Below, one piece after another: positions 30,868 to 60,100 of a stretch of DNA of 64,000 bases (its first letter is position 1; every line of letters begins with the position of its first letter). A program made the position numbers and the translations under genes. Location of the stretch: IMG/VR virus record IMGVR_UViG_3300023174_000039, positions 186,001 through 250,000 of that record. The stretch is one strand, 5' to 3'. This DNA is from a virus. The notes under the pieces are model-generated. The model was not told the origin of the DNA, ran no database searches, and saw only the letters and a program-made list of their open reading frames with translations.

Positions 30868-30942
30868 GCGCCTATAGCTTAATGGTAAAGCAGGGGACTC
30901 ATAATCCCTTGAGTCGTGGTTCGATCCCACGTGGGCGCACCA
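30868..30942 (+). tRNA. tRNA-Met or tRNA-Ile2 (CAT)
   Basis: Cloverleaf with acceptor GCGCCTA/TGGGCGC, anticodon loop CTCATAA and encoded CCA. The loop context is compatible with an Ile2 tRNA whose C34 is changed to lysidine, so Met versus Ile is open. Confidence 0.9.
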
Positions 30943-30947
30943 TTTTT

Positions 30948-31022
30948 CTGGCCATAGTATAATGGATAATACAGTAGCCTTCTAAGCTATCAATCTAGGT
31001 TCGATTCCTAGTGGCCGGACCA
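30948..31022 (+). tRNA. tRNA-Arg (TCT)
   Basis: Acceptor CTGGCCA/TGGCCGG, anticodon loop CTTCTAA, encoded CCA. Five bases after the previous tRNA. Decodes AGA/AGG, rare codons in many proteobacteria. Confidence 0.92.
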
Positions 31023-31056
31023 AGCTCTGTTAAATAACAGACACTAGGAGAGCACT

Positions 31057-31218
31057 ATGGCTTCATTTATCACAGCAGTAAAATCGGCATTGGAAAAAAA
31101 GCATGCCGCACAACATCCTGATGCAAAACCCGTCAAAGGTTCCAAGTCAGTTAAAAAACCAACAGCACCACAGCCAGTGGGTAAACCTGTTAAAAAGGTC
31201 ACTGGCCGGGGCGGATAA
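31057..31218 (+). CDS. Small Lys/Pro-rich basic protein
   Basis: 53 residues between two tRNAs, with TAGGAG upstream of the ATG. After a short helix (FITAVKSALEKKH) the rest is Lys, Pro, Gly and Ala, ending VTGRGG: a disordered, strongly basic tail like histone-H1-type or ribosome-associated proteins. Possibly a nucleic-acid-binding peptide. Function unknown. Confidence 0.6.
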   Translation: MASFITAVKSALEKKHAAQHPDAKPVKGSKSVKKPTAPQPVGKPVKKVTGRGG

Positions 31219-31225
31219 CGCACAA

Positions 31226-31309
31226 GCGAGTGTGGGGGAATAGGTAGACCCAGCAGACTTAAAATCTGCCGCGTAATGCGTACCGGTTCGATTCCGGTCA
31301 CTCGTACCA
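31226..31309 (+). tRNA. tRNA-Leu (TAA)
   Basis: Type II tRNA with long variable arm, acceptor GCGAGTG/CACTCGT, anticodon loop CTTAAAA and encoded CCA. Confidence 0.92.
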
Positions 31310-31318
31310 TTTTATATC

Positions 31319-31876
31319 ATGACCAAGATAAACAGTAGCCCCGATCGACACACCTTTCAAAAAGAAGGTTATGTTAAACGCTGTGAGGAACAAGGCAAGT
31401 TGCCTAATCCTGACTATGTTGAAATGTACAAAACCTGGCGTGAACAAGATGCGGCAAATCTTGTGGATCCCGAGTGGCAAAACAACAACATGGAGTACGA
31501 CCTGCGTAGTACCAAATGGATCTGCGACAAAGTCAAGGCCAGCGACAGCTATGCTCAAAATCTGTATGCAGCCATGTGCAACATGCAATTTGTAAAAAAC
31601 GAAGTATGGCCTTTGCTCAAGGACCAACGCTGGAGTGCCAGTTGGCGCAGTGCTGGAGGCATTGTGGCTGACATGCATGAACAAGGTGACTATATTGACT
31701 GGTACTGTTCGGGCATTGGTGGCATGATGGGAGGCGGTAGTGAGTCCAGTCCAGCAACAGAAGCAGCCTTGCTGGCCAGAAAAAACTATGTGCCAGAGGG
31801 CACTGTCACTGATGAGATCCGAGCAGACTTATTTCAACTGGGATGGATTCCAAAAGAGTGGGACAGTGATGAGTGA
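31319..31876 (+). CDS. Hypothetical phage protein
   Basis: 185 residues starting nine bases after tRNA-Leu, without a clear ribosome site. Acidic, with an N-terminal helical part and a Gly-rich IGGMMGGGSESS loop near 133, ending in a WIPKEWDSDE tail. No family recognised. The next gene starts inside its stop region. Confidence 0.65.
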   Translation: MTKINSSPDRHTFQKEGYVKRCEEQGKLPNPDYVEMYKTWREQDAANLVDPEWQNNNMEYDLRSTKWICDKVKASDSYAQNLYAAMCNMQFVKNEVWPLLKDQRWSASWRSAGGIVADMHEQGDYIDWYCSGIGGMMGGGSESSPATEAALLARKNYVPEGTVTDEIRADLFQLGWIPKEWDSDE

Positions 31877-32507
31877 CCATACCTATTATAAAAAACTCAA
31901 CTTGCCGGCTAACCCGTTAAAGGACAGCCGAGCGGTGTCTCAGATGTCGATCACTGGTGTTTATGACATAGTAGAACCCCATGCGATTCTAACAGATGAA
32001 ATACTTTCTATCTTTGACAGTCTTGAGTTGCGTGTGAAAATGGTTGCATTGTTTGGTCGTATGGACGGTACTTCTACCAAACATGATAGACTGATACATG
32101 CTGACCTTTACAAAAACAATGCTGATGTGCGTGGATGGTCAAAACTGGTAGCCGGCGTGAATTGGGAGATCGAAGGGTCGCACAATGTTTTTTATTGGTA
32201 TGACATGTCAAAACTTGACGAGCACTGGCCGCCTGTAGTGGGATCAGGTACATCAAAGTATGATTTGTTGAATGGCATACACTACGGACAACGTGGCAAT
32301 CACGGAGTTTATCCCGAGCAGGCAGTGGTACTAGAACACACCACCATTGACGGTCCCACACTAGTGAGAACTGACATTCCACACTCGACATTGTATCACA
32401 ATCCCAACACATACCGAGTGGGGGTCAGTGTTAGATTTTTTGAAGAAGACTTTGATCACAATTGGGAAACAGTATTGGCAAAGTTTCAACCAGTGTTTCT
32501 CAAATAA
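31869..32507 (+). CDS. 2OG-Fe(II) oxygenase-like / cupin-fold protein
   Basis: 212 residues from the ATG at 31869. RLIHADL at about 77 gives an HxD pair, and IPHSTLYHN with later YRVGVSVRF at about 170-190 could supply the distal His and Arg of a 2-oxoglutarate dioxygenase jelly roll. Phages carry many such prolyl-hydroxylase-like proteins. Residue spacing is plausible, but the call is by eye. Confidence 0.45.
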   Translation: MSDHTYYKKLNLPANPLKDSRAVSQMSITGVYDIVEPHAILTDEILSIFDSLELRVKMVALFGRMDGTSTKHDRLIHADLYKNNADVRGWSKLVAGVNWEIEGSHNVFYWYDMSKLDEHWPPVVGSGTSKYDLLNGIHYGQRGNHGVYPEQAVVLEHTTIDGPTLVRTDIPHSTLYHNPNTYRVGVSVRFFEEDFDHNWETVLAKFQPVFLK

Positions 32508-32514
32508 ATAAGAG

Positions 32515-32580
32515 TTAAGACTGTATGAAGTTGACAGAAAAGGATTCAAGACCCGGGGGCAGTTCCCGGCAGGTCCACCA
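32515..32580 (+). ncRNA. ssrA: Permuted tmRNA, acceptor (3') piece
   Basis: The stretch ends in GGTCCACCA at 32580, with a T-arm (CCGGG, 7-base loop, CCCGG). Its CAGGTCC pairs over seven positions with GGGCCTG at 32923-32929, which makes a tRNA-like acceptor stem. GTAT 32523-32526 and TTGAC 32531-32535 pair with GTAC 32954-32957 and GTCAA 32947-32951, the P2 helix. The 3' piece thus lies upstream of the 5' piece, as in circularly permuted tmRNA genes. The 5' end of this piece is an estimate. Confidence 0.88.
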
Positions 32581-32603
32581 TAAGGAGATTGAATAAATAC
32601 TAG

Positions 32604-32909
32604 ATGCGAATAAAAGAACTGACTGAATCATTTAACAAGTGCTATGATATGGCATGTAAAATGTATGATTACGCAAAGGCTAAAAATTTGCATCCTAAAC
32701 TAATACAAGTAGCAGATTATAAAGGCGATGGTTCCGGTGCTGATAAACGCTGGCAAAAACTACCGCAAAGAGTGTGGCAACATTATGTCACAGTAATCGG
32801 CAATAAAGTCTACGATCCAACTGCTAAACAGTTTGGTCCTGACAACGATACTGAATATAGTTTAGAAAGATTAGATGCTGACTGGGGACAACAGTATCTA
32901 ATTAAATAA
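32604..32909 (+). CDS. Papain/transglutaminase-like small protein inside the tmRNA gene
   Basis: 101 residues encoded in the spacer between the two tmRNA pieces. N-terminal MRIKELTESF, then NKCYDMACKMYDYAK (Cys13 or Cys18), and QHYVTVIGNKVYDPTAKQFG at about 64-83, a strand-turn with His65 and Asp74 that resembles papain-like small phage proteins with Cys-His-Asp triads. There is no typical ribosome site next to the start; TAAATA ends four bases before the ATG. Expression would be tied to, or cut out from, the tmRNA precursor. Confidence 0.68.
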   Translation: MRIKELTESFNKCYDMACKMYDYAKAKNLHPKLIQVADYKGDGSGADKRWQKLPQRVWQHYVTVIGNKVYDPTAKQFGPDNDTEYSLERLDADWGQQYLIK

Positions 32910-32922
32910 GTCTTTTTATGAT

Positions 32923-33100
32923 GGGCCTGACATAGATATCGATTGGGTCAAGAGTACGGAAATGGACAGTCCGGCAATGTAGAAGCCGTTAGGGTTGGGG
33001 GAACTTGGCCGAAGACACAAAAACCGTAAATGCAAACGACGAACAGTTCGCTTTAGCCGCCTAAACTCGGCTTAGGGTAGGAAATACCTCGTAACAGAAA
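32923..33100 (+). ncRNA. ssrA: Permuted tmRNA, coding (5') piece with tag
   Basis: Begins GGGCCTG, the partner of the acceptor piece. The tag reading frame at 33032-33064 reads ANDEQFALAA then TAA, with GCA as resume codon, so the full tag is Ala plus this peptide. It ends in the LAA degron expected for ClpXP. The P2 partners at 32947-32957 match the acceptor piece. Together they form a trans-translation RNA that frees stalled ribosomes. The exact 3' end is unknown. Confidence 0.92.
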
Positions 33101-33105
33101 CCACC

Positions 33106-33132
33106 AAAAAAGGGCACTTTGGTGCCCTTTTT
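33106..33132 (+). terminator. Terminator of the tmRNA unit
   Basis: GGGCAC (33112-33117) and GTGCCC (33122-33127) around a four-base loop, followed by five T. An intrinsic terminator right after the coding piece. Confidence 0.9.
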
Positions 33133-33192
33133 CTTTGACTTCTTAGTATAAACGCTATATACTAGTTGATATTCATTTTATAAGGAAAAATA

Positions 33193-34086
33193 ATGACAAC
33201 AACAATTACAATCAAGGACAAAGCAGTAAACACAACATATCAAAATGTCACAGGGTTGACAGGTGGCTCAGGCGACGGCGCCGCATTTGATGTTACCAAG
33301 ACCAATGGTGTTTATTCCGTTGTGTTAGACGCATTGGCAGCCAGTGCTGGCCGCAACTATGTGGCAGGTGATACTATTACTCTTGCTGGCACAGCACTGG
33401 GTGGTACAAGTGCCAACAACTTGATCGTCACAGTGGGCACAGTTGGTACTGCCGGTAAGATTGCTACATTTGGTGTAGTGGGCACAGGCCGTGTTGGCGA
33501 TGGCACAGTAGACGTACAAGTTGATGTTACTGGTACCAGTGGCATTGACACTTATACTGTAGGTGGTGCCAGTACAGAGTACACAACAACCAAGACCGCA
33601 AGTGCAGTTACATTGGCCAGTTCACTGGTCAGCAATTTAGAAATTAAACTTGCTGATCACGAGCGTGTGGTGTTCACAGACAAAGCCATTGCATATGATG
33701 CCGCAGGCCGTGCAGGTGATGTATATGCATTGTTGGCAGCCGCACTTGGTGTTAGTGATGTTACTCGAGCCTACGAAGGCATTGGCATCTATCTTGCAGA
33801 TGCAGGTTGGACCAACAAACAATTGGCCACTGCATTGTTGGCCACTGATACATACAAGGCCGACGCCGGTGGTGTCAGTGACGAAACATTCATCAAGCAT
33901 GTTTATAAAAATGTCACAGGTACCACTGCCACAATCGCAGATGTTACTGCATTAACAAACTGGATGACTGCCAACAAGTACAGTCAAGCAGATGTACTGG
34001 TCATTGCCAGCGAATTGCCAGCATTTGAAACAGCAATTGGCCTGGTTGGATTGGCAACAACTGGCATTGAATATACTCCTGTATAA
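33193..34086 (+). CDS. DUF4214-like repetitive beta protein
   Basis: 297 residues. The first half is Gly/Thr/Val-rich beta sequence typical of tail-fibre or decoration proteins. The second half, from HERVVFTDKAIAYDAAG at about 157 to YKNVTGTTATIADVTALTNW and a SELPAFETAIG end, resembles DUF4214 domains of secreted S-layer or RTX proteins. The start follows TAAGGAAAAA, and the gene is flanked by terminators on both sides, so it is a single-gene unit. Likely structural or cell-surface adhesive; not certain. Confidence 0.6.
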   Translation: MTTTITIKDKAVNTTYQNVTGLTGGSGDGAAFDVTKTNGVYSVVLDALAASAGRNYVAGDTITLAGTALGGTSANNLIVTVGTVGTAGKIATFGVVGTGRVGDGTVDVQVDVTGTSGIDTYTVGGASTEYTTTKTASAVTLASSLVSNLEIKLADHERVVFTDKAIAYDAAGRAGDVYALLAAALGVSDVTRAYEGIGIYLADAGWTNKQLATALLATDTYKADAGGVSDETFIKHVYKNVTGTTATIADVTALTNWMTANKYSQADVLVIASELPAFETAIGLVGLATTGIEYTPV

Positions 34087-34102
34087 TACAACCGGCCCAG
34101 AC

Positions 34103-34129
34103 AAAAAGGCTGTTTTCACAGCCTTTTTT
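34103..34129 (+). terminator. Intrinsic terminator
   Basis: AAAGGCTG and CAGCC around TTTTCA, followed by six T. Ends the DUF4214-like gene. Confidence 0.9.
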
Positions 34130-34202
34130 GTTGATTAAATGTAAACATCGCTATATAATATAGATTGACTACCAAGTCAATTTAAACAAGGAAATTTAAA
34201 AA

Positions 34203-34742
34203 ATGAAAAAATTTGCATTCGCATCACTCTTGGCTTTGGCCTCTTTCGCTTCTTCTGCACAGTATGTGTCAGTTGATGTGGACCATGTAAAGACCAGTCG
34301 TGGTCAGGAAAGTTCTGCACAGTACATCCGTGCTGGCAAAACCATCAGTGGCATTGACTACGGTCTCCAAAGCCGCACAGGTGTTGGCAACAAAGGTGGC
34401 ATGTTCAACAGCCTAGAAGTCACAGCTGGCAGCAAACTGGGTTCTTTCGCGCCGTTCGTGGGCGTGGGCTATGACAATGGCTTTAACGGTTCACCTGCTG
34501 GTTCATACACATATGGCTTGTTGGGCGTAACAACTGGTGCCAAGGTTGGTCCAGGTTTTGCATTTGGTGGTGTCAAGACTCGACTGGGTTCTAGTGCCAA
34601 AGTAGAAACAAAACAAACAGTGGCGTTTGGTACTTACAGTTTACCCATTGCCAAGAACCTTGCACTCAACGTGAATGCAAGCAAGAGCTACCAAGACATC
34701 AAAGAAACAGCTTATGGTGTTGGCCTAGCGTTTGGGTTTTAA
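34203..34742 (+). CDS. Small outer-membrane beta-barrel protein with signal peptide
   Basis: 179 residues. MKKFAFASLLALASFASSAQ is a clear Sec signal peptide with cleavage after SSA. The rest is alternating strands with Gly turns and ends YGVGLAFGF, a terminal Phe as in BAM-dependent barrels. It would be exported into the host outer membrane, perhaps to mask a receptor against other phages. It has its own promoter region (TATAAT near 34155) and terminator, so it is an independent unit. Confidence 0.72.
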   Translation: MKKFAFASLLALASFASSAQYVSVDVDHVKTSRGQESSAQYIRAGKTISGIDYGLQSRTGVGNKGGMFNSLEVTAGSKLGSFAPFVGVGYDNGFNGSPAGSYTYGLLGVTTGAKVGPGFAFGGVKTRLGSSAKVETKQTVAFGTYSLPIAKNLALNVNASKSYQDIKETAYGVGLAFGF

Positions 34743-34768
34743 ATGTAATACTTAATAGTTACATTTAC

Positions 34769-34795
34769 AAAAAACCCGCACTAGGCGGGTTTTTT
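34769..34795 (+). terminator. Intrinsic terminator
   Basis: ACCCGC, a short loop and GCGGGT followed by six T. Ends the outer-membrane protein gene. Confidence 0.92.
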
Positions 34796-34803
34796 ATTGG
34801 CGG

Positions 34804-34832
34804 TTGACTGAATATTCTGAATTTGCTACAAT
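34804..34832 (+). promoter_or_regulatory. Sigma70-like promoter of the ncRNA/tRNA region
   Basis: TTGACT at 34804-34809, 17 bases, TACAAT at 34827-34832 preceded by ATTTGC. Downstream, TTTGCAAAG near 34859 and CTTTGCAAA near 34887 form a long stem. Confidence 0.75.
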
Positions 34833-34901
34833 AGAAACAAGTTAAGAAATACAGCAAAGTTTGCAAAGCCCTTATAAAGAAAAAGGACTTTGCAAAACAA
34901 G

Positions 34902-34930
34902 TTGACAAGTAAATCACAAGATGTTATACT
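34902..34930 (+). promoter_or_regulatory. Second sigma70-like promoter before the structured RNA
   Basis: TTGACA at 34902-34907, 17 bases, TATACT at 34925-34930. Two promoters within 100 bases, with no protein gene after them, suggest strong transcription of RNA genes. Confidence 0.7.
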
Positions 34931-34993
34931 AGAGACTAGTTAGGAAATAGTAGATCGAGACTGTTTCAAGAGTTCGTTAAAAATTCAATTTTG

Positions 34994-35222
34994 TATAGTA
35001 CTCGGATCCAATCCGGGCACTATATGTAAGCACATTGGGTTACCGCCCCAGTAGGTAATTTGACAAGAGATCAATCTGTGGCCGCACAGACTCTTCCAAG
35101 TTACATGAAAGATGGAAACGAAGCCGCAAGGTGGATACTGTATAATCGCGCTGGACCAGGTAGGCCTGTAATGTGTTTGACAAACAAGTCCGTGGACGAC
35201 ACGGTAGGGCAGAAAAAACTGC
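34994..35222 (+). ncRNA. Large folded RNA, first segment
   Basis: No protein gene is seen here. Several perfect stems occur in a row: TATAGT/ACTATA enclosing CGGAT/ATCCG (34994-35024), AAGAG-TCTGTG with CACAGA-CTCTT and a GCCG loop (35065-35095), CCGTG/CACGG (35190-35204) and GCAG/CTGC (35209-35222). Position behind two promoters and next to tRNAs in a phage recalls large ornate RNAs of the GOLLD/ROOL kind. The boundaries are a guess and family membership is untested. Confidence 0.6.
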
Positions 35223-35267
35223 GATCTTTGTCCGACATCCTGATGTGTTTTCATATAGTGATTTTTT

Positions 35268-35343
35268 GGTCTTAAAGTGTTCATGGACGCACGATGGCTT
35301 GTCACGCCATAAGAGTGGGGATCGTTACCCCCTAAGACCGCCA
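35268..35343 (+). tRNA. tRNA-Asp (GTC)
   Basis: Acceptor GGTCTTA/TAAGACC, discriminator G, anticodon loop TTGTCAC on stem ATGGC/GCCAT, encoded CCA. The T-loop is atypical (ATCGTTA), so a general scan may score it low. Confidence 0.82.
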
Positions 35344-35349
35344 ACATTT

Positions 35350-35412
35350 GAGAGCCACTACGCCTGGATACTTCCCTCGCAAGAGGCACTAGGTCCTGCA
35401 ACCGTGGCTCTC
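35350..35412 (+). ncRNA. Folded RNA hairpin with GCAA tetraloop
   Basis: GAGAGCCAC (35350-35358) pairs with GTGGCTCTC (35404-35412) over nine bases. Inside are CCTGG/CTAGG and CCTC-GCAA-GAGG (35375-35386), a GNRA tetraloop typical of tertiary docking. It fills the gap between tRNA-Asp and tRNA-Glu and may be part of the larger folded RNA. Confidence 0.65.
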
Positions 35413-35420
35413 CCTTATTT

Positions 35421-35496
35421 GCTCGGTTCATCTAGCGGTCTAGGATAGTGCCCTTTCACGGCATTCACACGGGTTCGAATCCCGTACCGAGCTCCA
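35421..35496 (+). tRNA. tRNA-Glu (TTC)
   Basis: Acceptor GCTCGGT/ACCGAGC, anticodon loop CTTTCAC, encoded CCA. Confidence 0.92.
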
Positions 35497-35501
35497 CACA
35501 T

Positions 35502-35586
35502 GGAGATGCCGCCGCAATGGTGTGGCAGGGGACTGTAACTCCTCCGACTTCGGTCACGATAGGTTCGATCCCTATCATCTCCACCA
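35502..35586 (+). tRNA. tRNA-Tyr (GTA)
   Basis: Type II tRNA: acceptor GGAGATG/CATCTCC, anticodon loop CTGTAAC, variable arm and encoded CCA. Confidence 0.92.
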
Positions 35587-35949
35587 GAACGTTCCGGGTG
35601 TCTCCGGATAGTCAGACCCTGACGATGAGAAGTAGTGTGACAACTACGGGTGGTAGTCTTCAAACCCAAAGGCCGCTAGCAATGCGAGAACGGTCCCTGT
35701 CGGGAAGCGGGTGGAAGGAGTATGTGATGGATACGATAGCGTCGTATCTTGATACTCTACAATTACCGCCGGGGGATGCAGAGCATGTTTGTTTTTATAG
35801 TCAAGCATCGATAAAGGTATCGTGACAGGACGCTGTCACTATTCGGGCCTAACTGTGCGAGGAACAGGTCCTGACATAACTGCCATTCGCTTGTCAGAGC
35901 TAGCTACTTTGTTGACAAATCGGCATCTCTCGGTGCTTGACTATAAAAA
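35587..35949 (+). ncRNA. Large folded RNA, second segment with 16-bp closing stem
   Basis: 363 bases without a credible gene. TTTTTATAGTCAAGCA (35792-35807) is the exact reverse complement of 35934-35949. Between them are the hairpins CGATA/TATCG, GTGACAG/CTGTCAC and CTGACA/TGTCAG, which gives a multi-branched domain. The part before 35790 has GTAGT/ACTAC, TCCC/GGGA and a two-part stem GAGTAT-GATACGA with TCGTATC-ATACTC. It ends three bases before tRNA-Cys. It looks like an ornate phage RNA; the function is unknown. Confidence 0.7.
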
Positions 35950-35952
35950 TAC

Positions 35953-36030
35953 GCACAGGTGGCAGAGTGGTCCAATGCACGGGATTGCAAATCCTGAAAG
36001 CCGTGAGTTCAAATCTCACCCTGTGCTCCA
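35953..36030 (+). tRNA. tRNA-Cys (GCA)
   Basis: Acceptor GCACAGG/CCTGTGC, discriminator T, anticodon loop TTGCAAA and encoded CCA. Confidence 0.9.
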
Positions 36031-36038
36031 GTTTTTAT

Positions 36039-36224
36039 ATTGATAACAGTGTGTTAAAAACTCTTTGACCAAGGGCCCAACTGCTAGGGAATTATTGATC
36101 CAAAAACCGCTGAGCGGACGAAAGTTGCGGCGGACTGCTAGTCACAGTCACACATGTTTTTGGAAGGATGCTGGTGTAGCAATACAGCAGGGACCTTTAA
36201 ACACACAGCAGTATTGTTATCAAT
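36039..36224 (+). ncRNA. Rod-like folded RNA
   Basis: ATTGATAACA (36039-36048) pairs with TGTTATCAAT (36215-36224), then GTGTGTT pairs with AACACAC. Further in, GGGCCC/GGGACC and TGCT/AGCA can pair, then ATTGATCC with GGAT..CAAT, and CCAAAAAC (36100-36107) with GTTTTTGG (36156-36163). The result is one long interrupted rod of about 186 bases, a shape and size like 6S RNA, although no 6S sequence signature was recognised. Confidence 0.65.
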
Positions 36225-36235
36225 ATAAGTACTAC

Positions 36236-36310
36236 CGCGGGGTGGAGAAGTAGTAACTCATCAGGCTCATAACCTGAAGATCGGCGGTGCGAATCCGTCC
36301 CCCGCATCCA
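36236..36310 (+). tRNA. Initiator tRNA-fMet (CAT)
   Basis: Acceptor CGCGGGG with a C1-A72 mismatch, the bacterial initiator hallmark, anticodon loop CTCATAA on stem TCAGG/CCTGA, encoded CCA. The three G-C pairs of a standard initiator stem are reduced to two. Confidence 0.85.
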
Positions 36311-36332
36311 ATTTTACCATTTGTGGTTGACT

Positions 36333-36355
36333 TTCAATCATAAATAAACTACAAT
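36333..36355 (+). promoter_or_regulatory. Sigma70-like promoter of a short unit
   Basis: A TTGACT -35 box at about 36327-36332 and TACAAT at 36350-36355 with a 17-base spacer. The unit it drives is only about 170 bases long and ends in a terminator. Confidence 0.7.
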
Positions 36356-36365
36356 AGAAACTAAC

Positions 36366-36479
36366 ATGAAAACACAAAACTATTCATTTGCTAAGCCATC
36401 CATGTTTGTCCAGCCTTCAGCCTGGACGCATGCGAACGGTCGCGTGAATAGCATTCCAGGAGATCCGGGGTCCGTGTAA
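36366..36479 (+). CDS. Possible 37-residue peptide or leader
   Basis: An ATG ten bases after the -10 box opens 37 codons with no ribosome site. The product is unremarkable (MKTQNYSFAKPSMFVQ at the start). The unit has its own promoter and terminator, so it may instead be a small RNA with a chance reading frame. Confidence 0.35.
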   Translation: MKTQNYSFAKPSMFVQPSAWTHANGRVNSIPGDPGSV

Positions 36480-36505
36480 AGTACATTAGTATTCTACTCA
36501 AAGGA

Positions 36506-36537
36506 CCCTGGAACTAAACACTCCAGGGTTTTTCTTT
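36506..36537 (+). terminator. Intrinsic terminator
   Basis: CCCTGGA (36506-36512) and TCCAGGG (36522-36528) with a nine-base loop, followed by a T-rich run. Confidence 0.92.
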
Positions 36538-36600
36538 TAGTGCAATGGCAACGAGAGCCGGCATCACTCAAAACTGCAAATGGGCGGCCTGTAGGATGGA

Positions 36601-36685
36601 ACACTATTTGTAGTGTGAAAAATTACAGCGTATTAAAGCATTCTTTAAGAACAGGCAGCCTAAGTATTTTAGAGTGCTTTAATAC
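36601..36685 (+). ncRNA. Two strong stem-loops before tRNA-Trp
   Basis: ACACTA-TTTG-TAGTGT (36601-36616) and a 15-base stem, 36630-36644 with 36671-36685, broken only by one G-T pair. A third small stem CACAC/GTGTG follows. No gene is seen in 36311-36708 besides the peptide candidate. They may be processing signals for the tRNA transcript or a small RNA. Confidence 0.6.
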
Positions 36686-36708
36686 ACACATTCGTAAGAG
36701 TGTGTCGG

Positions 36709-36782
36709 GTATCTCTGGTGTAATGGCAGCACCGCGGTCTCCAAAACCGTCAGTCAAGGTTCGAGTCCTTGGAGGTACGCCA
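36709..36782 (+). tRNA. tRNA-Trp (CCA)
   Basis: Acceptor GTATCTC/GAGGTAC, discriminator G, anticodon loop CTCCAAA on GCGGT/ACCGT, encoded CCA. Confidence 0.9.
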
Positions 36783-36787
36783 CACAT

Positions 36788-36861
36788 GGGCTGGTAGTTA
36801 AATGGGATAACGGTGGCTTTGCAAGCCTCAGTTGGGAGTTCGATTCTCCCTCGGTCCACCA
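36788..36861 (+). tRNA. tRNA-Ala (TGC)
   Basis: Anticodon loop TTTGCAA, acceptor GGGCTGG/TCGGTCC with the G3-T70 wobble that marks alanine tRNAs, encoded CCA. Confidence 0.88.
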
Positions 36862-36905
36862 AATTAAATTTGACACAACCGTGTGTCTGCTATATAATAG
36901 CATGT

Positions 36906-36995
36906 CGAGAGCGGGCAGGACGGTAATGCAGCGGATTGCTAATCCGTAGACCGTAGTAATACGGTCACTGGGTTCGACTCCCAGGCTCTCGGCCA
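36906..36995 (+). tRNA. tRNA-Ser (GCT)
   Basis: Type II tRNA with long variable arm, acceptor CGAGAGC/GCTCTCG, anticodon loop TTGCTAA, encoded CCA. A sigma70-like TTGACA/TATAAT pair lies just upstream (about 36870-36898). Confidence 0.9.
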
Positions 36996-37006
36996 CATCA
37001 ATCAAT

Positions 37007-37082
37007 TCCCTAGTAGCTCAGTCGGTAGAGTAGCAGACTGTTAATCTGTTGGTCACACGTTCGAACCGTGTCTGGGGAGCCA
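37007..37082 (+). tRNA. tRNA-Asn (GTT)
   Basis: Acceptor TCCCTAG/CTGGGGA, anticodon loop CTGTTAA, encoded CCA. Confidence 0.92.
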
Positions 37083-37087
37083 AACAA

Positions 37088-37163
37088 GCCCTTATAGCTC
37101 AGCTGGTAGAGCAACTGATTTGTAATCAGTAGGTCCCGTGTTCGAATCATGGTGGGGGCACCA
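37088..37163 (+). tRNA. tRNA-Thr (TGT)
   Basis: Acceptor GCCCTTA/TGGGGGC, anticodon loop TTTGTAA, encoded CCA. Confidence 0.92.
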
Positions 37164-37166
37164 ATC

Positions 37167-37242
37167 GCTCTCATAGCTCTAGTGGTAGAGCATACCCTTG
37201 GTAAGGGTAAGGTCACGTGTTCGAATCACGTTGAGAGCACCA
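37167..37242 (+). tRNA. tRNA-Thr (GGT)
   Basis: Acceptor GCTCTCA/TGAGAGC, anticodon loop TTGGTAA on TACCC/GGGTA, encoded CCA. Second threonine isoacceptor. Confidence 0.92.
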
Positions 37243-37251
37243 ATTCATTTC

Positions 37252-37328
37252 AGCTTCATAGCTCAGTTGGTTAGAGCACCGTGTTGATAACGCGGGGGTC
37301 CTGTGTTCGAGTCACAGTGAAGCTACCA
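37252..37328 (+). tRNA. tRNA-Ile (GAT)
   Basis: Acceptor AGCTTCA/TGAAGCT, anticodon loop TTGATAA, encoded CCA. Confidence 0.92.
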
Positions 37329-37379
37329 AATTTTTAAAGGAGAGTCCCTATGGACAGTGATAAGAGTGGGAAGATTTGT

Positions 37380-37455
37380 GGGACGTTAGCTCAGTTGGTA
37401 GAGCAGTAGACTTTTAATCTATTGGTCATTGGTTCAAATCCAATACGTCCTACCA
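37380..37455 (+). tRNA. tRNA-Lys (TTT)
   Basis: Acceptor GGGACGT/ACGTCCT, anticodon loop CTTTTAA, encoded CCA. Confidence 0.92.
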
Positions 37456-37521
37456 TATAAAAACACACTTGGTATGCCCATAGCATACAGAGACATCAGA
37501 AACGTGAGTGTGTTTCTATAT

Positions 37522-37598
37522 GGTGCTTGTCGTCAAGCGGTTAAGACCTCGGATTGTGATTCCGATATACGTGGGTTCGAATCCCATCAAGCACCCCA
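37522..37598 (+). tRNA. tRNA-His (GTG)
   Basis: Acceptor GTGCTTG/CAAGCAC with the extra G-1 paired to C73 that identifies histidine tRNAs, anticodon loop TTGTGAT, encoded CCA. Confidence 0.92.
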
Positions 37599-37599
37599 T

Positions 37600-37674
37600 G
37601 GATGTATAGCACAGCGGTAGTGCATCTCCTTCATACGGAGCAGGTCAGTAGTTCAAATCTACTTACATCCACCA
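37600..37674 (+). tRNA. tRNA-Met (CAT), elongator type
   Basis: Acceptor GGATGTA/TACATCC fully paired, so not an initiator; anticodon loop TTCATAC, encoded CCA. One of three CAT tRNAs in the window; the identity split between Met and Ile2 with 30868 is open. Confidence 0.85.
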
Positions 37675-37685
37675 TAACATTTTGT

Positions 37686-37759
37686 TGGGGGTTAGTTAAA
37701 TGGTATAACATCGGATTTTGATTCCGAGATCACAAGTTCGATTCTTGTACCCTCTGCCA
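37686..37759 (+). tRNA. tRNA-Gln (TTG)
   Basis: Anticodon loop TTTTGAT, acceptor TGGGGGT/ACCCTCT with an unpaired first position as in many glutamine tRNAs, encoded CCA. Confidence 0.88.
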
Positions 37760-37764
37760 CATAT

Positions 37765-37841
37765 CGGTCCTTAACTCAATTGGATAGAGTGCCAGTCTTC
37801 GAAACTGGAAGTTGGGAGTTCGACTCTCTCAGGACCGGCCA
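37765..37841 (+). tRNA. tRNA-Arg (TCG)
   Basis: Acceptor CGGTCCT/AGGACCG, anticodon loop CTTCGAA, encoded CCA. Second arginine tRNA. Confidence 0.92.
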
Positions 37842-37880
37842 GTTTTTAACCTTGTATAATACTAGCCTATAAATATTTCC

Positions 37881-38642
37881 ATGAAGAAAGCACTTATACT
37901 TGGATGTAGTCATGCCGCTGGTTCAGAAATGATTGATGAGCCAGAAATTGATTTGTTAAACTATGGCAAAGACTACTATGGATACTGTATGAGTTATCCC
38001 TCACAGTTGGCACAATTGTTGGGGTACCATCCCGTAAATCATGCTATCCCTGGTGGTAGCAATGATGCAATGTTTAGAATATTTGAATCGTTTGTCAACC
38101 CTTACAAGAACTTTGAAAAGCCTGACATTGTGTTTGTATGTTGGACCGGTGGCGAACGTACCGAGGTATGGGACTTTGAAGAAGGCAACTGGATTGGCCT
38201 TGCTGGCGGTAAAACTAATTTTACAAAAACAATTCCTGATAGTGTTATACGGGAAGGGAAAATTATTCCTGAACCTATTATTAACGCCGATAACATTGTT
38301 ACATATCAAAAACAATGGATCACTCATCATGCTGATCGCTGGTGGGGTCGATTGAACAAGTTAAAAAACATACTGGCACTGAACACCATGGCAGCTCAAG
38401 AGAAGATCCCGGTTATTAATCTTGATAGTTTTGGTGCAGTGCAAGAATACACATTTCCCGACACAGTATATCGTCCCTTGGGACAAACTGAGTTTTGTAA
38501 CTGGGCGGTCGAGCGTGGATTCAACAACACCAAGTCGGGACATTACTTTTTGCAAGCACACAGAAGTTTTGCAAACTTCATTGCCAAAAAAGTTGATCCA
38601 AAGTATCATGCAGATAACATCGGAAAGATCATAACAGAATAA
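37881..38642 (+). CDS. SGNH-hydrolase-like protein between tRNAs
   Basis: 253 residues. KALILGCSHAAGSEM at 3-17 is a GxS block I, NHAIPGGSNDAMFRIFES at about 53-70 fits blocks II-III with Gly and Asn, and a late SGHYFLQAHRSFANF at about 223 supplies His residues. Third such protein in the window. A TATAAATA box (37868-37875) and TATAAT (about 37854) precede the ATG, which has no ribosome site. Confidence 0.6.
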   Translation: MKKALILGCSHAAGSEMIDEPEIDLLNYGKDYYGYCMSYPSQLAQLLGYHPVNHAIPGGSNDAMFRIFESFVNPYKNFEKPDIVFVCWTGGERTEVWDFEEGNWIGLAGGKTNFTKTIPDSVIREGKIIPEPIINADNIVTYQKQWITHHADRWWGRLNKLKNILALNTMAAQEKIPVINLDSFGAVQEYTFPDTVYRPLGQTEFCNWAVERGFNNTKSGHYFLQAHRSFANFIAKKVDPKYHADNIGKIITE

Positions 38643-38646
38643 TAAT

Positions 38647-38720
38647 GCGGGGCTCGTATAGTGGTAATACCTTAGCCTTCCAAGCTAAAGCGAGGGGTTC
38701 GATTCCCCTGCCCCGCTCCA
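38647..38720 (+). tRNA. tRNA-Gly (TCC)
   Basis: Acceptor GCGGGGC/GCCCCGC, discriminator T, anticodon loop CTTCCAA, encoded CCA. Confidence 0.92.
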
Positions 38721-38726
38721 CTTATT

Positions 38727-38802
38727 GCGCGGTTAACTCAGTCGGTAGAGTTCTTGCCTTACACGCAGGCTGTCGGCGGTTCGAGCCCGTCACCGCGCAC
38801 CA
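38727..38802 (+). tRNA. tRNA-Val (TAC)
   Basis: Acceptor GCGCGGT/ACCGCGC, anticodon loop CTTACAC, encoded CCA. Confidence 0.9.
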
Positions 38803-38808
38803 CACATT

Positions 38809-38885
38809 CGGAGTGTAGCACAGCCTGGTAGTGCGCCTGGTTTGGGACCAGGAGGTCGTAGGTTCGAATCCTACTATTCCGACCA
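38809..38885 (+). tRNA. tRNA-Pro (TGG)
   Basis: Acceptor CGGAGTG/TATTCCG, anticodon loop TTTGGGA on CCTGG/CCAGG, encoded CCA. Confidence 0.92.
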
Positions 38886-38892
38886 CCTTTTT

Positions 38893-38984
38893 GGAAGATG
38901 ATGCAGTGGGGTTGGTCCCGCGACTGGCCTTGAAAACCAGGTTCTCTTAACAGGGATGGGGTTCGACTCCTCCGTCTTCCGCCA
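38893..38984 (+). tRNA. tRNA-Ser (TGA)
   Basis: Type II tRNA, acceptor GGAAGAT/GTCTTCC, anticodon loop CTTGAAA with one mismatch at the stem top, encoded CCA. Confidence 0.88.
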
Positions 38985-39028
38985 AATTAATTGACACCGC
39001 AGATGTTGTGTGTTATTATGATAGTTAG

Positions 39029-39113
39029 GCCCAGGTGGCGAAATTGGTAGACGCACCAGATTTAGGTTCTGGCGTAGAAATATGTGTCGGTTCGAGTCCG
39101 ACCCTGGGCACCA
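39029..39113 (+). tRNA. tRNA-Leu (TAG)
   Basis: Type II tRNA, acceptor GCCCAGG/CCTGGGC, anticodon loop TTTAGGT, encoded CCA. Own promoter just upstream (TTGACA at about 38991, TATTAT/TATGAT near 39013-39021). Confidence 0.92.
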
Positions 39114-45889: not shown

Positions 45890-46477
45890 ATGCCGTCAGT
45901 ATTTTTAGTCAGCGATACACATTTTGGGCACGCCGGTGTATGTCGGTTCACACATCCTGATGATGCCACTGTGAAGTTGCGTCCTTGGGACAATGCCGAC
46001 GAGATGGACGAAGAGATGATCCGTCGATGGAACGACCGTGTGCGTCCCACTGACAAGGTCTATCACTTGGGAGATGTTGTGATCAACCGCAAGGCCTTGA
46101 AAACATTGCATCGCTTGAATGGGGACAAGGTGTTGATTCGTGGCAACCACGATATCTTTCCAGATGTTGAGTACCGTGAGTATTTTCGTGAGTTGCGAGC
46201 CTACCATGTCATGAACGGAATGATCTTGAGTCACATCCCAATCCATCCTGAATCATTGGGTCGGTTTGGCGTTAACATTCATGGTCACTTGCATGCCAGT
46301 CGTGTAAAAATGACTGACCCGTTTGGACATAGACCGCCCATGATTGACCCACGATATCATTGCGTGTGTGTGGAGCAAACTGACTTTACCCCTATCTTGT
46401 TTGAAGATGTTATCAAGCGTATCGAAGCCGAAGGTGGTACTGTTGGCTTTAAAAACGGCAACGGTCCCACAATGTAA
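45890..46477 (+). CDS. Calcineurin-like metallophosphoesterase
   Basis: 195 residues. The five metal motifs are present in order: DTHFGH at about 9, YHLGDVV at about 58, IRGNHD at about 82, LSHIPIH at about 112 and NIHGHLH at about 127. Typical for phage phosphoesterases of unknown substrate. AAGGAG precedes the ATG. Confidence 0.9.
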   Translation: MPSVFLVSDTHFGHAGVCRFTHPDDATVKLRPWDNADEMDEEMIRRWNDRVRPTDKVYHLGDVVINRKALKTLHRLNGDKVLIRGNHDIFPDVEYREYFRELRAYHVMNGMILSHIPIHPESLGRFGVNIHGHLHASRVKMTDPFGHRPPMIDPRYHCVCVEQTDFTPILFEDVIKRIEAEGGTVGFKNGNGPTM

Positions 46478-56059: not shown

Positions 56060-57119
56060 CAATCTCCGCACAGAGATTTTAGACGCCACTGACGAAGTTC
56101 TTCGCAGTGGTCAACTCATGAACGGCAACAACACCGTTGAGTTTGAAGCATGGCTTGCAAAACGCAATCATGTACGTTATGCAGTAACTTGTCATTCAGG
56201 CACACATGCACTTGAAATTCTAGCCAGTTACTGGGCAACATGCGACCGTCTTGCACCACATCCTCCTACTGTGTTAATACCCTCAATGACTTATGTGGCC
56301 ACTGCCAATGCATTTATACGTGCAGGCTGGGATATACACATCATTGACACAGACATACACGGCCTAATAGATGTCAACAAAATACCCGAAAATTTAAGTT
56401 ACCAGGCCATTGTAATGGTTGGCTTGTATGGTGCGGCTGTAACACATCACGGCAATGTTCGTGCCTGGAACCAATGGCTACATCGTGATACCATTATAAT
56501 TGAAGATGCCGCACAACATTGGTTGGCAGCAGGTAGCGCCAGGACTGGTCGTGGTGGCGCTGCCATCAGTTTTGATCCCATGAAGAACTTGGCTTGTTAT
56601 GGCAATGGTGGTGCTGTGGTTACAGACAATCTGGATCTAGCAGAATATGCAAGGGCCTGGCGTGACAACGGTAAACCTACGCATCGTAATCCTGGAACTA
56701 ACAGCCGCATGAGTGAACTAGACTGTGCTCATATGTTGGTCAAAGCAAAGCACATTGATCAGTGGCAGGCACGTAGACAAAGTATTGCCGATCACTGGTG
56801 TGAAAGATTTAAAAATGCAAACATACGCTGTTTGATCAACGACTCAAATGCACACAACCATGCTGTGCATAAGTTTGTGATAGATGCTGATGGTCGAGAT
56901 ACACTAAAGGCCAATCTCTCTCTGCGCAAAATTGATACACGAGTGCATTATGCAAATCCCTTGCATGAAATGAGTTTGTATCGTGCATATCCAGGTCCTG
57001 ATATGCTGGCCGCAAGTTCTAGTCTTGCTCGTCGTGTGCTAAGTCTGCCTATCTATCCTGAACTAACAGACCTAGAAGTTGAATACATCAGCGATCAGGT
57101 GTTAGACTGCGTCGCATAA
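55971..57119 (+). CDS. DegT/DnrJ/EryC1/StrS aminotransferase
   Basis: 382 residues. IPFTGLKKQYNNL at about 20 is the usual family start; HSGTHALEI at about 81, EDAAQHWL at about 180 and SFDPMKNLACYGNGG at about 200-214 with the PLP Lys are all present. The start is unsure: the ATG at 55971 lies 89 bases inside the epimerase gene, with another at 55986. It would aminate a keto-sugar made by the epimerase. Its 3' end overlaps the giant minus-strand gene by 32 bases. Confidence 0.85.
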   Translation: MIPKWMYKKDSKITSTGLTIPFTGLKKQYNNLRTEILDATDEVLRSGQLMNGNNTVEFEAWLAKRNHVRYAVTCHSGTHALEILASYWATCDRLAPHPPTVLIPSMTYVATANAFIRAGWDIHIIDTDIHGLIDVNKIPENLSYQAIVMVGLYGAAVTHHGNVRAWNQWLHRDTIIIEDAAQHWLAAGSARTGRGGAAISFDPMKNLACYGNGGAVVTDNLDLAEYARAWRDNGKPTHRNPGTNSRMSELDCAHMLVKAKHIDQWQARRQSIADHWCERFKNANIRCLINDSNAHNHAVHKFVIDADGRDTLKANLSLRKIDTRVHYANPLHEMSLYRAYPGPDMLAASSSLARRVLSLPIYPELTDLEVEYISDQVLDCVA

Positions 57120-60100
57120 ACGCATAACTAGCTAACCACTCCCATTCATAGCTCTTTTTAAGAGCCGTAAAATCTCCGCCCACTTCTTCATAGTACTCTA
57201 CAGCATCCTCTGCGCCAAAGCGACTCCACTCTGCGTTCTTGACTTCTCCTGTATCGCTGAGCCACAGGTTGAGTCGGTACTCGTTTTCTACATCTGGTAA
57301 ACTGTGTTTGAGCTTGAGTACTTCACGGAATGCTGTGCGCCAGGCCATCCAAGGTGTTTCGGTGTAGTTGGCTGTGCCACTTATGATTGGAACCACTTCG
57401 TGTGGTTGGTCCATGGTAAAGTCTAGACCTGTTCCTGCATTTTCCAAAGTCATCTGTCGGTTGTAAGCAATCATGGCCTGGTGGCCATATACCAATCCAT
57501 TTACGGGATTGTGTGCGTGGAAGATGTAATGTTTGGGCTGTTGCATACGGTCAGGTTGCCATGTCCAATCAAATCTATGATCAACTTCTAGCTTGGCAAA
57601 CACCGCAAAGAACCATGGTGTTGTGCTTAATCTAGCGGCTGCTTGATATGCTGCCACACGACCATTTACTCCTTTTGAGTGATGTATGTGATTGCAATCC
57701 AAGCCTTCCATCTGCACTGCCCACACCAGGTGTTGGTAGTTAAACTCAGCATAAGGCTCGCCATTTGAAATAAACACAATGTCTAACGGATGCTCCTTGA
57801 GCATGCGTTGAGTTTTATCAATGTAAGGATAATCGTATAACTGCGTCTTGATGTAAGGTACAGCCGCTTGTGGTACAATCACAGTACTGGCACCCGAGCT
57901 CAATGGCACAATGGTCTTGCTACGATCACGCCATAAACTCACTGTATGTAAACGATGATCCGCATAATCTACTGTGGTAAACATTGTGAGTGGTGCAGTC
58001 CATACATGATTACGCACAACATCCACATGTGAGTCTTCGGTGTGTTGCACTATAGGCATTGGCCAACGAGGTACTGTCTGATCGTTACAGTAGTTCACCG
58101 TCTCAAACCAATCTAACAACTCAAGCTCGGCAATTTTGGCCTGCAATGCTTTTACTGGCACAAAGAATGTGTCTCCAAACTTTTGCTCATTGCTGGGGAA
58201 TACATGCAACATGTCTCGTTGCCAGGCTTCGGGTTGCCAAGAGAAGTCAAATGCAGTGTAATCACACACTGAACCAACCACCCACACATGATCATCTGCA
58301 ACACCATCCAGCAGTCGCTTGAGTGTGTCAAGATAGTTGTCAAAGTAACGTGCTTTCTTGACCACACGATACCGTTGTTCAAGATTGGCAATAACTGTTG
58401 CGCTTTCTTTGTTGCCAAAGTCCACAACATAGATGTCGTGTGCGTCAGCTGGCGCATGTATGCGTTGGTCAGTAACAAAGTTCAAGTTGGGAAACTCTTC
58501 TATGTTCTTGGCCCACTTGGCATGACGTTCAAACTCCCAACGGTTGATTAGGAATGTATCCGACCACTTGTTCCACTGTGATCCAAACACATGTGTCATT
58601 GAACTTTGCCAAGGTTGGGCATGCCAGGCAAAGTCAAACTCTGTGTAGTCGTTCTCACTGCCAATAACCCAGAAACGATTCTGTTTGGTCTTGTTCAAGC
58701 AACGTTTGATAGTGTCTTGTATGCTGTTGACATAACGAATCTTCTGTATGTGCGGATAACGTTCTTGCAGTTGTTTGAAACGCACCGTGCTCAGTGCATT
58801 AGATCGATCCATGTAAAAGATATCTTGTACTTGTACCGCTTTCTTCTCTTTTTGTATAAGCGGGGCGTCGCCGGCAAATTTCAATTCAGACGCACCGGGT
58901 ACTGTGTAGGTAAGTCCAATACTCATTTGATACTCACTGCCAAAGTGATGTATGTATGGCTCGTCTTTGGGATGCGGGTGCCAGGAAAAATCTACATTGG
59001 TTGCGTTGATCTCTTCAGGAATATTCCAGCGATCCATAACTGGCAACAGTCTAGCTCTTACAGAATCAACAAACTTGCGCTCAGTTGCACCTGGTACATG
59101 ATATTCAATCGTGCTCATTTCTTCAGCTGGATGCCATTGATTACCAAACACATAGATAAATGGAGGGTCGCCCGGATCAGGAACCCAACTGCGATCAAAC
59201 TCAAATGGAACTGTGGCTGTGACTATCCACTGATCATGTGCCAACAATTTTGCCACAGGCTCGTTCATGAACTTGCGTTCTGTGGCTCCTGCAACTGTGT
59301 ATTCCACTGTGGGCATGATTTCTGCTGGCCAGTGTTGATTACCAAACACATAGACAAATGGAGGTGATCCTGGATCTGGTTCCCATGAGTAGTCAAACTC
59401 ACAGGGGTGGTGTGTGGTAAACAGTTCAGGATTGCCCACACGCAACGCACGAGGTTCACTCATGTACTTGATTGTGGTAGCAGTTGCCACACGATATTGC
59501 AATGCCGGACGTTGTTCAGGTGTGAGCCATTGATTACCAAACACATAGATGTATTCTGGATCTGTGGGATTTGGCCTCCAGGAATAATCAAACGATTCAA
59601 CATTGTCAAGTATTTCAAAATCTGCTGGACTCTGTGCCACAGTGGCAATCAAGTCATCCACATACTTGATTTCAGTGGCGCCAGACACTGTGTAAACCAC
59701 AGTGGCTTCTAACACAGCAGGATTCCATTGATTACCAAACACATAGATAAATGGCGGATCAAACGGATTGGGTTCCCAAGAATAGTCAAATTTGCTCACT
59801 GCAATGTTGTGTTTGAACAAGCTGGGTTGCGGCAATCGTGTGGTACGTGCTTCCTGGTACTTGACTTCTGTCGCGCCCGCTACTACATATCTTACACTGG
59901 CTTTGTACTCTGCTGGGTTCCATTGATTGCCCCAAACATAGATATAAGGGGGATCTTTGGGATTAGGCACCCAGGTCCAGTCCCATGCAGATTCGTCTAT
60001 GGGTTCTAGTATTTCCCACCCAATTCTAGACTCTGCAAGTGTTGCAACTGGCAAGTCTACAAACTTTTCTTTTGTTGCCCCGGGCATGACATACCGTACA

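Follow-up and report, generated by a model that had tools for sequence, protein, structure and literature searches.

A protein-coding gene nested in the spacer of a circularly permuted tmRNA gene of a T4-like virus, and unrelated small genes in the spacers of other viral permuted tmRNAs

The stretch analyzed here (the window) comprises 64,000 nts, positions 186,001 to 250,000 of the IMG/VR virus record IMGVR_UViG_3300023174_000039, and carries a circularly permuted transfer-messenger RNA (tmRNA) gene whose two pieces are separated by a long intervening sequence (IVS). A protein gene, conserved in two other viral contigs (L003 and L004), is nested in this IVS, and unrelated small open reading frames (ORFs) occupy the IVSs of other viral permuted tmRNAs. 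Judged from sequence comparison, the locus is most probably a functional permuted tmRNA gene of a phage, with a small protein gene carried as cargo in a slot formed by its spacer. The analysis revealed how the tmRNA is built, that the cargo is under purifying selection, that a stem covaries, that a promoter keeps a fixed position and that the cargo is exchanged between phages. The features of the locus, with window coordinates and the evidence in parentheses, are as follows.

32504-32510, plus strand: T4-late-type promoter-like motif ATAAATA, just upstream of the acceptor piece (motif in the sequence)
32519-32580, plus strand: tmRNA acceptor piece, the 3' half of the tRNA-like domain with an encoded CCA at its end (Rfam RF04321 alignment, exact pairing)
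32553-32569, plus strand: T-arm CCGGG-GGCAGTT-CCCGG with an alpha-like T-loop (sequence, bacterial comparison)
32570-32576, plus strand: 3' strand of the acceptor stem, CAGGTCC, partner of 32923-32929 (pairing, RF04321)
32581-32922, plus strand: IVS of 342 nts, predicted to be absent from the mature tmRNA (RF04321, pairing; L003 and L004 IVSs equally long)
32581-32590, plus strand: 5' strand of the extended acceptor stem, TAAGGAGATT, including the Shine-Dalgarno-like AAGGAG at 32582-32587 (pairs with 32909-32918; covariation; pair probabilities 0.82-1.0)
32593-32603, plus strand: T4-late-type promoter-like element ATAAATACTAG, directly ahead of the ORF ATG and identical in L003 and L004 (sequence; putative function)
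32604-32909, plus strand: IVS protein-coding gene of 101 codons with invariant C13, C18, H60 and D71 (orthologues; ratio of nonsynonymous to synonymous substitution rates, dN/dS)
32909-32918, plus strand: 3' strand of the extended acceptor stem, AGTCTTTTTA (covariation)
32919-32922, plus strand: conserved TGAT ahead of the coding piece (ends 38 of 46 distinct viral IVSs)
32923-33105, plus strand: tmRNA coding piece, the 5' half of the tRNA-like domain and the mRNA-like part (RF04321; 3' end estimated)
32947-32957, plus strand: P2 3' strands GTCAA and GTAC, partners of 32531-32535 and 32523-32526 (pairing)
33032-33064, plus strand: tag frame ANDEQFALAA and stop codon (RF04321, translation)
33107-33132, plus strand: intrinsic terminator-like hairpin ending the unit (sequence)

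A preliminary description of this DNA had proposed a phage-encoded, circularly permuted two-piece tmRNA gene, and this anatomy was confirmed. When a 751-base stretch was searched, the Rfam family RF04321 (tmRNA_permuted) matched 32519-33064 along the full model (74.8 bits, with the curated cut-off at 47; E = 1.9e-14), and the helices are intact. As described, the acceptor piece ends with GGTCCACCA at 32580, the coding piece begins with GGGCCTG at 32923, and the seven acceptor positions of CAGGTCC and GGGCCTG pair, one of them as G-U. The P2 partners also match (GTAT at 32523-32526 with GTAC at 32954-32957; TTGAC at 32531-32535 with GTCAA at 32947-32951), and the tag frame reads from GCA to TAA as proposed. 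All five pairs of the T-stem CCGGG/CCCGG are present; its stem and 7-nt loop are contiguous, which rules out an intron-form tmRNA with a group I intron within the T-loop. The model searches suggested by the description had a mixed outcome: the permuted Rfam model succeeded on the short stretch, but ARAGORN reported 24 tRNAs and zero tmRNA in the window. An Rfam scan of the whole 64 kb at the gathering threshold likewise returned tRNAs only. Since the same model passes on the short stretch, these misses are attributed to the length of the spacer and to search filters. L003 (101 bits) and L004 (84.9 bits), both with the layout of the window, exceed the RF04321 cut-off in an ordinary scan. The intact helices argue for a functional tmRNA, for which a two-piece mature RNA, alanine charging and action together with SmpB are predicted. 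A search of the phage record for an SmpB gene found none, so trans-translation would depend on the SmpB of the host.

The protein gene between the tmRNA pieces was overlooked in the preliminary description and is the novel part of the locus. L003 and L004 have IVSs of exactly 342 nts, and their IVS proteins are 88% and 74% identical to that of the window, respectively. The dN/dS of the ORF in this family (window, L003 and L004) is 0.12-0.21, and 45 of the 74 differences between the window and L004 ORFs fall at third codon positions. On the basis of this purifying selection and third-position excess among orthologues, the frame at 32604-32909 is taken as a protein-coding gene nested in the tmRNA gene. 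Its 101-aa product showed no Pfam family above cut-off, no PHROG and no PDB relative; it had no match in named phages, and a profile search of viral contigs returned only L003 and L004. A BLASTN search of the tmRNA region against named phages likewise gave chance hits only. An AlphaFold model of the protein built from three sequences had a predicted local distance difference test score of 43 and was not used, being unreliable. A Cys-His-Asp reading of the papain or transglutaminase type is not claimed, since its sole basis was the spacing of the residues together with a match to YunG below threshold (E = 0.062).

Viral loci were collected by acceptor or tag strings irrespective of IVS content and, with two more acceptor patterns added, yielded 149 distinct IVSs (median 95 nts, longest 342 nts). 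Loci L073-L189, which were fetched by a Shine-Dalgarno-plus-ATG pattern, were excluded from frequency counts and included in the ORF families and the stem test. By rule, an ORF spanning the IVS from start to end with a Shine-Dalgarno sequence was found in 21 of the 28 IVSs of at least 150 nts; in four IVSs of this size class (L003, L416, L500 and L537), a spanning ORF is visible by eye. Shuffled interiors of large IVSs contained a spanning ORF by chance in only a few percent of cases. Clustering of the IVS ORFs resulted in 43 groups, ten of them with multiple members; the true number of families is lower, because this count takes in short ORFs close to the noise floor. A third-position excess was observed in most of the ten multi-member clusters, and pooled dN/dS was 0.16-0.55 in nine of them, the tenth being saturated and uninformative. 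In five IVS ORF families other than that of the window, dN/dS was 0.10-0.40. Pfam matches include DUF2061 (E = 3.5e-20 and 3.7e-21) and Oxidored-like (E = 1e-11), and the Oxidored-like frame has a dN of 0 with up to 8 synonymous changes. By eye, many cargo proteins carry one hydrophobic stretch. The IVS ORFs of many relatives stop at the TGA of the conserved TGAT, but that of the window does not. No tRNA genes were detected within the viral IVSs by ARAGORN, and a tblastn search with four other cargo proteins against named phages found one distant relative, with no tmRNA annotated nearby. The 215-nt IVS of L416 contains two consecutive small ORFs of 36 and 25 codons. Methylophilales phage Melnitz (L292; MZ577097, record positions 46013-46345) has a 142-nt IVS with an ORF (MFKWLSKTRLVVITRDYF...) that resembles those of L451 and L477; its record annotates no gene inside the tmRNA.

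For comparison with bacteria, 299 genomes were sampled from the phylum of a phage-bearing metagenome-assembled genome (MAG; G001). A permuted match was present in 101 genomes, and 47 alphaproteobacterial-type genes, recognized by tag and T-loop, were examined in detail for their IVS. This phylum-wide sample replaced a first control from one gammaproteobacterial order, which was discarded for weak T-arm matches. The alphaproteobacterial IVSs are 5-115 nts long (median 33) and usually consist of a plain hairpin, and the single true betaproteobacterial gene has an IVS of about 42 nts. Coding IVSs were thus seen in phages, and none was seen among these 47 genes and the one betaproteobacterial gene.

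Further examination of the viral loci revealed exchange of the cargo. L019, L027 and L046 are versions of one locus, with acceptor pieces 100% identical, coding pieces 91-100% and flanks about 89-94%, and yet their cargo ORFs are unrelated (72 aa, a 69-aa DUF2061 protein and about 40 aa, respectively). Homology among them ends 9-15 nts into the 5' end of the IVS and returns 6-18 nts before the coding piece. The tmRNA pieces of the window and L032 are 94% and 92% identical, whereas their IVS cargo is unrelated; conversely, the IVSs of the window and L003 are 90% identical at the DNA level, but their tmRNA pieces only 67% and 68%. These discordant identities indicate that cargo and RNA have separate histories. 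The exchange resembles homologous recombination through the tmRNA halves, which we infer from this pattern. Related proteins with the common ending AAAATCTTTATGAT occur within the IVS of L414 and immediately before the acceptor piece in L190 (CAIMTR010000195.1), a 3-kb phage-like contig with a permuted tmRNA that was binned into a Gammaproteobacteria MAG; their positions suggest that this gene may have moved across the acceptor piece.

In 46 distinct viral IVSs, the first 10 nts pair with the 10 nts preceding TGAT, and the resulting helix prolongs the acceptor stem. The two strands match their own partner at 9.33 of 10 positions and the partners of other phages at 7.53, and none of 5000 permutations was as good. 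Covariation is evident at position 5 (G-C, C-G and A-U) and at position 7 (all four Watson-Crick types). In most coding IVSs, that of the window included, the Shine-Dalgarno sequence (TAAGGA or AAAGGA) lies within this stem, whereas most non-coding IVSs keep the stem with an AAGCA- or AAACA-like sequence instead. This placement bears on an explanation by coupled control, according to which the stem closes the cargo Shine-Dalgarno in the precursor, so that translation would have to take place either before synthesis of the 3' strand or once RNase P has cut, and the cargo and tmRNA maturation would regulate each other. The start of the coding IVSs, which pairs with UCCUUA or UCUUU immediately ahead of the coding piece, and an unpaired probability of the Shine-Dalgarno close to 0 in the predicted pairing of several precursors, that of the window among them, are in keeping with such control. 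However, the stem also occurs without a Shine-Dalgarno sequence and may serve processing alone, the Shine-Dalgarno being merely tolerated, and in some families (Melnitz, L451 and L477) it is situated outside the stem, so that the in-stem placement is common but not universal. We therefore regard coupled control as a possibility to be held tentatively.

The position of promoter motifs was analyzed in 179 distinct viral upstream regions, numbered from the CCA end. TTGAC falls at -105 to -96 in 91 of its 111 occurrences, and [TA]AAATA falls at -80 to -71 in 107 of 144. Such fixed positions suggest that transcription starts near the beginning of the acceptor piece. Upstream of the window tmRNA, the second element (ATAAATA) is present, and there is no good first element of the TTGAC type. 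ATAAATA was rejected as a genome-wide late promoter, as the window contains 10 copies, all on the plus strand, against 9.97 expected; the argument thus uses its fixed position alone. The same data bear on the idea that the tmRNA has decayed and that a non-functional relic is retained solely as a place for small genes to land. A phage whose host has a tmRNA needs none in principle, and ARAGORN overlooks the gene; but the acceptor stem, T-arm, P2, resume region and tag frame are all intact in the window, the family cut-off is exceeded even by relatives with pieces just 67-71% identical, and the promoter keeps its distance throughout the upstream regions. A mere relic is hence very improbable.

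The element before the ORF ATG raises another explanation, namely that an ordinary small phage gene landed in a neutral spacer and is expressed solely from its own late promoter, unconnected with tmRNA processing. The element adjoins the ATG and is the same in all three phages, the Shine-Dalgarno of this family is too distant from the ATG, and an insertion in the spacer should not harm the mature tmRNA. On the other hand, an element of this type is confined to the window family: most other cargo families lack such a promoter, and in them the stem contains the Shine-Dalgarno and the ATG follows CCA by 9-13 nts. Many unrelated genes fit the slot from end to end, often stopping at the conserved TGA, and ATAAATA occurs in the window only at chance frequency. 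An independent gene is accordingly considered unlikely, albeit not strongly so.

Several observations weigh against the interpretation of the spacer as a cargo slot served by tRNA-processing enzymes. First, the ORF rule is unspecific for short IVSs (below about 110 nts) and also passes 8 of the 47 bacterial genes; it was not relied on for short IVSs. Second, the Oxidored-like frame (L022, L033, L053 and relatives), whose protein is perfectly conserved, has no start codon inside the IVS, and the nearest in-frame ATG is in the acceptor piece. Third, Sinorhizobium phage Phosso (L291; PV764938.1, 349596-350198, minus strand) contains a permuted tmRNA that is not annotated; its IVS of 410 nts lacks a long ORF and possibly holds another structured RNA. 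Fourth, the Shine-Dalgarno is still predicted to be paired in the excised window IVS, so processing by itself need not free it. Finally, the window Shine-Dalgarno lies about 16 nts ahead of the ATG, beyond the standard initiation distance. The internal late-type promoter at the ATG may also drive the ORF in the window family and, in view of this distance, perhaps chiefly so.

With these points taken into account, the cargo-slot reading would involve two-piece processing by host enzymes, translation and timing of the cargo, and use of the spacer as mRNA, all of which we infer. A single promoter before the acceptor piece would drive a transcript that runs from the acceptor piece through the cargo ORF and the coding piece to the terminator. 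The ends of the IVS would lengthen the acceptor helix by about 10 bp and bring the cut sites together, and host tRNA-processing enzymes would cut the transcript, with RNase P generating the 5' end of the coding piece and 3' processing acting at CCA. The two tmRNA pieces would then act with host SmpB, and the IVS, either excised or still attached, would be the mRNA of the cargo gene. The cargo itself would be swapped among phages by recombination via the conserved tmRNA halves. A more general proposal, which is speculative at this stage, is that the phage tmRNA spacer is a general exchangeable cargo site where tRNA-processing enzymes also release a minimal mRNA, with its Shine-Dalgarno at the very 5' end and its stop often one base from the 3' end, and where tmRNA maturation and cargo translation are mutually controlled.

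The window derives from a 331,654-base T4-like virus record in which a terminase gene is present. The family B DNA polymerase of this record is of the T4 type, and its nearest named phages are Sinorhizobium phage Phosso (49.5% identity) and Agrobacterium phage Atu_ph07 (46.9%). The tmRNA gene is surrounded by a cluster of the 24 tRNA genes detected by ARAGORN, which extends over about 8 kb (30868-39113) with small genes in between. A 2047-codon ORF is located on the minus strand at 57088-63231, unlike the remaining long ORFs of the window, which have plus-strand orientation.

As to the origin of the tmRNA, the preliminary description had suggested that it was perhaps taken from a betaproteobacterial host, for which the evidence is mixed. 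Among the older clan models, the betaproteobacterial one (RF01850) fits best, but the window reaches only 57.9 bits, below the family cut-off of 84; a sibling phage-like contig in a MAG reaches 107.6 bits with the same model. The T-arm is alpha-like, resembling the CCGGG-GGCGGTA-CCCGG or CCGGG-GGCAGTA-CCCGG found in most of the sampled alphaproteobacteria, and the sole true betaproteobacterial gene seen has AGGGG-TTCGATT-CCCCT. By plain identity, the window tmRNA pieces are 89-97% identical to those of other phage tmRNAs, and at most 73% (acceptor piece) and 58% (coding piece) to any sampled bacterial one, which points to other phages as the immediate source.

Permuted tmRNA spacers have so far been regarded as throw-away sequence. 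If the reading is correct, a class of small phage proteins is concealed in RNA genes, where it is easily overlooked by annotation, and one transcript would provide both an mRNA and a structural RNA via tRNA-processing enzymes, a compact natural design. Cargo swaps at near-identical loci could be used for studying single-gene exchange in phages, and, with the ribosome-binding site held in the stem, a connection of cargo translation with ribosome rescue becomes open to direct test. A partial literature search found no published reports of protein genes in the spacer of a permuted tmRNA, and priority is uncertain.

In integron-type gene cassettes, a shared promoter precedes a fixed site where small genes are swapped. 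The likeness to the phage loci is one of logic only; no recombinase or attachment site was seen in the phages, and none was looked for. Permuted tmRNA genes are known from alphaproteobacteria, betaproteobacteria and cyanobacteria (Rfam RF04321, RF01849-51; PMC11915505). The window gene shares with them the gene order, the acceptor, T-arm and P2 pairing, the tag frame and a short hairpin spacer beside CCA, but the sampled bacterial spacers (5-115 nts, median 33) contain no convincing gene, whereas that of the window has 342 nts and a conserved protein gene. A phage permuted tmRNA was already known in Melnitz, together with a glutamine riboswitch (PMC9004378). Melnitz, which has been isolated along with its OM43 host, resembles the present case in being a T4-like phage with a permuted tmRNA and an ORF in its 142-nt spacer, and differs in its Shine-Dalgarno outside the stem; the spacer gene is not mentioned in the parts of PMC9004378 consulted. 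One permuted tmRNA IVS with a tRNA-Ala gene and one with a repetitive element have been reported (PMC11915505); these also represent foreign elements in an IVS, but they are single cases, do not involve protein genes, and no exchange was described. Homing endonuclease genes have been described only in intron-form tmRNAs (PMC11915505). There, too, a protein gene is nested in a tmRNA gene, whereas in the window the T-loop is intact and the ORF is located in the spacer between the two pieces.
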